Of a stretch of DNA of 32,570 bases, positions 6,696 to 8,428 are shown piece by piece (position 1 is the stretch's first letter; the number at the start of each line of letters is the position of its first letter). The stretch covers positions 1 to 32,570 of the forward strand of contig PFXI01000082.1 of assembly GCA_002791575.1 (NCBI GenBank), in the 5' to 3' direction. This DNA comes from Zetaproteobacteria bacterium CG_4_9_14_3_um_filter_54_145 (lineage in GTDB: Bacteria > Pseudomonadota > Zetaproteobacteria > Mariprofundales > Mariprofundaceae). The notes below the pieces were generated by a model. It worked only from the letters and a program-made list of their open reading frames with translations. It was not told where the DNA came from and ran no database searches. The translations under genes and the position numbers were made by a program.

Positions 6696-7137
6696 AGGAT
6701 GGGCCTCCGTGGTGGTAGTAGTAATCGTGGAGCAGGCAGTCGCAACATTAACATAAAAGCCTGCATCTGACCGAGCGCTTGTTGATTCGCCTTGATCATT
6801 GCCGCGGGCTGTAGCAGGGCAGGGGGATGGATGCCCTCGCCATGTCAGATATAGCTTCATCCCGGATGGCCGAAAAAAATGGGCTCACCAAATGGCTCAG
6901 AATCGATTTTTCAGCACTGCTCCATACCGGATGTTCAAATCAGACCTGTAGCGCCTCACAGGTGCATATTTCCACGCATCGACCTGTGCTGCTGTTTCAA
7001 GATGCAGCAACGACCATGTAGCCTCTATTTTGTTGGTTTTTCTCCGGCAGCAGCCTACAATAGTGGCCAACAATAATCCGTTCATAGCCAGTAATATAAA
7101 CCAACAACAAAGAACCAATACACGGAGCAGCGGCAGC
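6696..7137. other. 442-bp intergenic region without a convincing gene
   Basis: It lies between the divergently transcribed lipoprotein and chimeric regulator genes and must hold both promoters. An inverted repeat CACAGGT (6957-6963) / ACCTGTG (6982-6988) is visible. A minus-strand frame at 6897-7139 encodes a hydrophobic N-terminus (LPLLRVLVLCCWFILLAMNG), but it would share its start codon region with the gene at 7138 and is not accepted. Confidence 0.5.
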
Positions 7138-7824
7138 ATGCCTTTATCTGACGAGCAGGTGAGAGAAACAACCATTCCCGAGGGAAAAAACCAGCTGAAA
7201 ATAAGCGACGGCGGGGGCCTCTATCTGCTGATCAAACCATCCGGTCGCTACTGGAAACTGGCGTATCGATTTGATGGAAAACAGAAATCACTGGCGCTGG
7301 GTGTCTACCCGGCAGTCTCGCTGCATGATGCCAGGGATAAACGGGCGACCGCCAAAGCTATGCTGGCCGATCATGTCGATCCGGGTCAGGTCCGGCAACA
7401 GCAGAGACGCCGGCAAATGGGCGCCGCCGTTGCCAATGAACAAGAGCTTATCAATCAGGCACAGGAACAGACGACTACAGATATGATGCAAGCACCACCC
7501 CCTGATCATCAACAGCAGCCACATCCGCTCAGCAGGAGCGCGCAACTGCAACTTGAAGAGCGCCGCCTGCGTATCCTGCAGATCATCAGGGATGCAAACG
7601 GTTATATCGCCAATGAACTGAACGTGCAGCAACTGCTGGATGAGGTGGGGCACAGGATCTCATTTGATCGACTGCGCACCGATCTGGCATGGTTATATGA
7701 GCAGCATCTGGTCTATCTTCAGACAGATACGCTCTGGGTGATCCATCTGACCAGGCAAGGCCTGGAGCTGGTGGATGGCCGCATCTGGGTGCCCGGTATC
7801 AGGCGAGCCGAACCTGTACTCTAA
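7138..7824 (+). CDS. Chimeric DNA-binding protein: integrase arm-type (DUF4102) domain fused to a Mu-like phage winged-helix domain
   Basis: Residues about 12-92 match the arm-type DNA-binding domain of P4-like tyrosine integrases (LKISDGGGLYLLIKPSGRYW, then LALGVYPAVSLHDARDKRA). The core-binding and catalytic recombinase domains are absent. A Gln-rich linker (about 95-135) leads to residues 137-228, which resemble the small winged-helix protein of Mu-like phages (VpaChn25_0724 family): LEERRLRILQIIRDANGYIA, FDRLRTDLAWLYEQHLV, LTRQGLELVDGR and VPGIRR. ATG 7138 has GGAG ten bases upstream, and the frame is intact at 228 codons. No other phage gene is nearby, which suggests a domesticated DNA-binding protein. 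The role is unknown; a regulator is inference. Confidence 0.8.
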   Translation: MPLSDEQVRETTIPEGKNQLKISDGGGLYLLIKPSGRYWKLAYRFDGKQKSLALGVYPAVSLHDARDKRATAKAMLADHVDPGQVRQQQRRRQMGAAVANEQELINQAQEQTTTDMMQAPPPDHQQQPHPLSRSAQLQLEERRLRILQIIRDANGYIANELNVQQLLDEVGHRISFDRLRTDLAWLYEQHLVYLQTDTLWVIHLTRQGLELVDGRIWVPGIRRAEPVL

Positions 7825-7833
7825 CACCTCCGT

Positions 7834-7866
7834 GTTGGTCTTTATTTAAATGCAATAAGAACCAAC
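7834..7866. terminator. Bidirectional hairpin between convergent genes
   Basis: GTTGGT at 7834-7839 pairs with ACCAAC at 7861-7866, and the stem continues inward as TTTATT with AATAAG. This gives 13 positions with one mismatch around a 7-base loop. It sits between the stops of the chimeric regulator (plus) and the DUF5610 gene (minus), where a shared terminator is expected. Confidence 0.55.
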
Positions 7867-7882
7867 CTATGCTTTTCGCGCA

Positions 7883-8428
7883 CTAGGCCCGAGCAGGATC
7901 CCCGTTTTGCACACCGAGCAGCACGGCAAGTCTGGATAAGCCGTCCTGTACCAGAGTATGGGTGGTATCCACTGTCTCTTTTGTGTCGCCCTTAAGCGCC
8001 TGCATGCTCTCAAGGATATCCCGCGCCTGCACAAAGCCCTGCTCAACACCTGTTTTCACATTGCTGAATAGTTGCTCCCTGCTGCTCTGTTCTGCTTTGG
8101 GCAGATCAAGCTGTGATGATTCAGCCCTGCCGATAAGCTGGGTGGCAAAACTAAGGATGCTGTCTGCAACCCCTTGCGGGCTCATGTCCTGCCCGGATGC
8201 GGCCGCTCGCTGGATGGCCCCGTCACCGAGATAGGGTTTGAATACTTCGTTAATCTTGTCCATAGCCGATTTGAGTATCAACTCGCTCGGGTCCGTTGCC
8301 ATAGTACTGCGACTGGCGGCTGGCGGTACTGCCAGTGGTGCCGAGACACCGGCTCTATCCGCTGGCTCGGGTCTGGTTGAAAAGAGCATGGCATTCACCG
8401 TGTTTGATGCAGAAATTGGCAGTGTCAT
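7883..8428 (-). CDS. DUF5610 family protein
   Basis: The 181-residue protein resembles the DUF5610 family, found in gammaproteobacteria and relatives without an assigned function. The conserved part is about residues 50-175: INEVFKPYLGDGAI, SPQGVADSILSFATQLIG, NVKTGVEQGFVQARDILESM, and a C-terminal helix. The first 45 residues are low in hydrophobic residues and probably disordered. There is no signal peptide. The family assignment comes from recalled motif similarity. The gene stands alone between a convergent and a divergent neighbour. Confidence 0.7.
   Translation of the reverse strand: MTLPISASNTVNAMLFSTRPEPADRAGVSAPLAVPPAASRSTMATDPSELILKSAMDKINEVFKPYLGDGAIQRAAASGQDMSPQGVADSILSFATQLIGRAESSQLDLPKAEQSSREQLFSNVKTGVEQGFVQARDILESMQALKGDTKETVDTTHTLVQDGLSRLAVLLGVQNGDPARA

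Follow-up and report, generated by a model that had tools for sequence, protein, structure and literature searches.

The window analysed here, a stretch of 32,570 nucleotides from an iron-oxidising marine zetaproteobacterium of the family Mariprofundaceae, encodes a fusion protein that we take, with a probability of about two in three, to be an integrase-derived, recombinase-free, self-repressing DNA-binding protein with an arm-site promoter. The 5′ portion of a P4-type integrase gene from a tRNA island would be its source, contributing the arm-site promoter, the start and the arm-binding domain; the core-binding and catalytic domains would have given way, in a single event, to a complete winged-helix protein like Mu gp26. 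Through its arm domain the protein would bind TGTTGGTYYTTTT sites that lie across the promoter and transcription start of its own gene, and their occupancy would repress the gene, giving the feedback of autoregulated integrases without recombination; the C-terminal domain would probably help in dimerisation, make a second DNA contact, or both. What is new is the binding-site array and where it comes from, and a literature search of open-licence papers returned no published report of this fusion or of TGTTGGTA arm sites. The protein would be a case of an integrase that lost its enzymatic part and retained its DNA-reading module together with the entire regulatory array, with sites predicted to the base.

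Domain architecture, distribution and origin

The N-terminal half aligns with the whole length of the PF13356 (Arm-DNA-bind_3) model (7.9e-22, 77.6-79.8 bits, cut-off 27) and retrieves the solved arm domains 3ju0 and 3jtz in sequence searches (2e-20 and 1e-16, respectively). Among solved structures, those of the HAI7 and HPI integrase arm domains are closest to it in both sequence and predicted fold. The C-terminal half covers positions 1-88 of the 88 in NF050184, the VpaChn25_0724 family (1.7e-22, 79.3 bits, cut-off 65), and matches phrog_436 (4.8e-23); gp26 of phage Mu itself scores 129 bits against NF050184, which places it in the same family. This domain takes up residues 135-228, and no recombinase domain, whether core-binding or catalytic (Phage_integrase), was detected in the fusion with Pfam, PHROG or NCBIfam. 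The initial annotation, made from the letters and open reading frames, had proposed just such a join of an integrase arm domain to a Mu-like phage protein, two different kinds of mobile element, in an intact frame with no catalytic core and no flanking phage genes, and it is borne out on each of these facts; only the ribosome-binding site that it called good is no better than fair (Table 1). Its interpretation is also largely supported. Of the two DNA-reading modules it envisaged, the N-terminal one is strongly supported, by computation, through the arm-site arrays described below, and the C-terminal one is a candidate by virtue of its winged-helix fold.

In the AlphaFold2 model (mean pLDDT 94, pTM 0.56, join flexible), a four-beta-strand arm domain is followed by a long helix (82-118) and a three-helix winged helix, with confidence falling to a pLDDT of 67-74 near amino acids 111-130 in the linker. 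The C-terminal fold resembles those of the regulators RosR, MftR, PadR and MarR, at weak Foldseek E-values (2.5e-3 or worse).

Table 1. Features of the fusion locus, in positions of the window.
Feature	Position	Strand	Basis or remark
Arm-type site TGTTGGTTTTT	7031..7041	+	TTGGTT at 7033-7038 can double as -35
Predicted -10 TACAAT	7056..7061	+	17 bp 3′ of TTGGTT
Degenerate half site CCAACA	7067..7072	-	Just 3′ of the -10
Arm-type site TGTTGGTTTATAT	7094..7106	-	Sequence pattern
Arm-type site TATTGGTTCTTTG	7108..7120	-	Sequence pattern
Ribosome-binding site GGAG	7124..7127	+	10 nt 5′ of ATG; sequence
Fusion gene	7138..7824	+	Open frame, ATG start, stop included; 228 aa
Arm-type DNA-binding domain PF13356, aa 3-89	7144..7404	+	Pfam match; PDB 3ju0/3jtz/3rmp by sequence or fold
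Variable linker, about aa 90-134	7405..7539	+	Fast-evolving; drop in model confidence
Phage Mu gp26 / VpaChn25_0724 winged-helix domain, aa 140-226	7555..7815	+	NF050184, phrog_436, predicted fold
Downstream arm-type site TGTTGGTCTTT	7833..7843	+	Sequence pattern
Downstream arm-type site GGTTGGTTCTTAT	7855..7867	-	Inverted relative to the 7833..7843 site

Across the 78 genomes of the class, the fusion is found at full length in 15 of 23 Mariprofundus genomes and in one genome of another genus of the same family; this occurrence in 16 genomes excludes chance or an assembly error. A peptide-pattern search found no full-length fusion elsewhere among 84,980 species. Among viral proteins, where matches to the C-terminal half were obtained with an alignment query and none with the bare half, no fused architecture was found, the longer viral frames being taken as upstream-open frames. 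The fusions form one group in the arm-domain tree (support 99/98) and one in the C-domain tree (99/96), and since each half is a single supported group, the simplest reading of these phylogenies is that the fusion arose once. In close pairs, purifying selection is strong, with dN/dS of about 0.05 for the arm domain and 0.2 for the C domain, and it is weakest in the linker.

The nearest genes in the window are lpxK, an RNase H gene, a glyoxalase-type ORF, a DUF5610 gene and recG, and neither phage genes nor a terminase context was found around the fusion. The DUF5610 gene (7883-8428, minus strand) lies between the fusion and recG; it is present in G005 and absent from that place in G003. The fusion precedes mazG-pgsA in seven genomes and recG, with or without DUF5610, in three, and lies elsewhere in the others. 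Its tree is discordant with that of RecG for G019 and G022, the G019 and G011 fusions are 85% alike while their neighbours are 70-78% alike, and between G001 and G015 the fusion is less alike than most neighbours. The discordance and the similarity contrasts suggest exchange, with misbinning of MAG contigs as an alternative. The gene had been called domesticated, and its intactness and the selection on it agree with this in part; however, the patchy distribution, the several chromosomal contexts and the RecG-discordant trees, with at least two apparent exchanges between species, speak against a simple vertical course of domestication.

Arm-type sites and the fusion promoter

Arrays of TGTTGGTTCTTTT-like sites in both orientations occur within about 300 bp upstream of the gene at all 16 fusion loci. 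Five loci (G000, G003, G002, G005 and G077) have clear downstream sites as well, and most orthologues have upstream sites only. The pattern TGTTGGTYYT is found 72 times inside the arrays against 4 times in 226 kb of flanks, a 470-fold higher density. Genus-wide there are 60 copies of the exact 12-mer TGTTGGTTCTTW, 50 of them at the fusion locus by coordinates and two more in the near-duplicate G014 promoter region; the eight genomes that do not carry the fusion have none. That region (L237:2010-2080, on G014:C34) is a near-identical copy of the fusion promoter array on G014:C38, either a duplication or a strain variant. The sites of the window copy are degenerate and include no exact 12-mer; the window nevertheless has two exact TGTTGGTYYTT matches against 0.03 expected. 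Its downstream pair could form a weak hairpin, no stronger than that of shuffled sequence (z -0.9). No genome-wide regulon of exact sites was found, six of the eight stray sites having been checked and all six lying in coding sequence, and a looser site pattern searched in the fusion's own genome gave 18 matches against 26 in the reversed control, thus not above it.

A matching motif emerges from integrases. K-mers were ranked, without use of the motif, in the 300-bp upstream regions of a dereplicated set of 50 full-length integrases whose arm domains are related, and the top 8-mer was TGTTGGTA, present in 34 of the 50 and 144-fold over background; the tRNA-end word GGTTCGA, expected for island attachment sites, was also recovered and acts as a positive control. 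Same-strand sites are most commonly spaced by 12 bp in integrases and fusions alike, and site orientation agrees between them. The annotated attP arm repeats of P4 also have 12-bp spacing, and their sequence, TTGGGGGCAT, is similar in register to the fusion sites. TGTTGGTTCTTTT sites also accompany a full-length integrase of Sulfuriferula (L076) that lies beside a tRNA-like gene. Taken together, the k-mer result, the spacing and L076 make an integrase promoter together with its arm sites, which stayed with the arm domain, the most plausible reading of the fusion array. As a separate observation, TGTTGGTA[TC] is widespread upstream of PF13356 island integrases across Proteobacteria (L009-L081, L194-L243), and may help to locate the attachment sites of uncharacterised genomic islands.

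The base that follows TGTTGGT varies with one residue of the arm domain. The fusions have Lys after a conserved Trp, and all 14 distinct fusions counted combine this Lys with T/C after TGTTGGT. Trp-Arg/His/Gln integrases have A at this position (34/34), whereas the two Trp-Lys integrases have a non-A base (2/2; p=0.0016 for the correlation). These two, L076 (from a Sulfuriferula MAG, 7919-7978) and L074 (from a Magnetococcales MAG), with T or mixed T/G, fall outside the fusion group in the arm tree, so the Lys/T match looks convergent. With two independent Lys integrases, we treat the Lys/Arg residue as a lead to a possible specificity switch of P4-type arm domains. Together with the core TGTTGGT, the Lys/Arg rule could point to the attachment sites of numerous genomic islands not yet characterised.

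The recognisable sites of resident Mariprofundus islands are A-type, TGTTGGTAT. Tandem TGTTGGTAT sites at G002:C18:159144 and G012:C36:107308, about 15-21 kb from an arm-domain integrase, are probably the far ends of such islands. On the viral contigs L338-L340, which have tandem T-type sites, no adjoining arm-domain integrase was recognised.

A predicted -10 element immediately precedes the sites at 12 of the 16 loci, making a plausible sigma-70 promoter, and in the window and in M. ferrooxydans one of the sites includes the -35 (TTGGTY). The prediction is weak at G077 and gave no clear promoter at G014 and G005, and the window -10 is unreported by a general promoter scan with a stricter threshold.

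Predicted autorepression and alternative roles

In KplE1, the integrase IntS represses its own promoter through overlapping arm-type sites (PMC2951348). Given this precedent and the promoter overlap at the fusion loci, autorepression of the fusion gene is the best-supported function that we would predict for the protein.

A main role against mobile elements was also considered. As an anti-integration or immunity factor, the catalysis-free arm domain would occupy island arm sites or int promoters in a dominant-negative manner, autoregulation setting its level. We consider this unlikely but a serious candidate. In its favour, the fusion keeps the arm-site core TGTTGGT that is common to many proteobacterial island integrases, T-type sites like its own accompany an integrase in Sulfuriferula, the stray sites checked in the hosts gave no clear second target locus, and the gene shows a patchy distribution and exchange, a frequent trait of defence genes. 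Against it, the resident islands are A-type while the fusion residue and sites are T-type, so the fusion may be insulated from those islands; nor does it match PADLOC-DB or stand in a defence-island context. That a host-maintained, recombinase-free derivative blocks or controls the integration of incoming elements, separated from resident islands by an Arg-to-Lys shift, is a little more doubtful still.

It is improbable that the gene and its flanking sites form a non-autonomous mobile islet, recombined by an integrase acting in trans. The five loci with sites on both sides of the gene, its several chromosomal contexts and the transfer inferred for G019 and G022 would be in keeping with such an islet, but most orthologues have sites upstream only and seven genomes share the conserved spot before mazG-pgsA. 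Moreover, neither a core or crossover duplication nor an adjacent tRNA was seen at the window locus, the tRNA-Glu being 11 kb off; for an empty-site comparison at recG, informative relatives were not found.

Less credible again is a regulator that finds its key targets through the Mu gp26 winged-helix domain and needs the arm half for nothing but autoregulation or tethering. The C domain is complete, conserved under selection and folded like DNA-binding regulators; its Mu gp26 relatives, however, come without a known target motif, and in phages the gene's place immediately ahead of the terminase genes would suit packaging no less than regulation. A decaying, functionless integrase remnant can be dismissed: although all eight other short arm-domain frames sampled run on into integrase core-binding sequence and are truncated or frameshifted integrases, the homologues of the fusion are intact in 16 genomes, with low dN/dS, no core-binding remnant and a complete second domain.

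Comparison with known systems

The fusion is close to the P4-type integrases (HPI/HAI7, 3jtz/3ju0/3rmp; P4 Int), with which it shares the sequence and fold of the arm domain, in-register arm sites, the 12-bp tandem spacing, an inverted site near the start codon and the overlap with the promoter. It differs from them in having no core-binding or catalytic domain and a Mu gp26 domain as its C-terminal half, in a site extension TCTTTT where theirs is commonly A[TC], and in lying outside any island or prophage. Like KplE1 intS (PMC2951348), it has arm-type sites over its own promoter, which predicts negative feedback, but here the feedback protein cannot recombine, and there is no attL or tRNA at the fusion locus.

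In Mu, phage B23 and the Mu-like prophage of M. ferrooxydans (L127), the free-standing gp26 gene lies directly before the terminase genes. That prophage and its gp26 relative (G003:C3, L127:6980-7276) coexist with the fusion in the same genome. The phage members of the Mu gp26 / VpaChn25_0724 family are free-standing proteins of about 98 amino acids; the fusion retains the whole domain, including its G-R-x-x-V/I-P-G-V/I end, as a C-terminal domain outside a phage. With RosR, MftR, PadR and MarR the likeness of this domain is at the level of fold, with no sequence family match. With its sites predicted to the base, the fusion opens a direct test both of what the poorly understood Mu gp26 family does and of the code by which P4-type arm domains read DNA.
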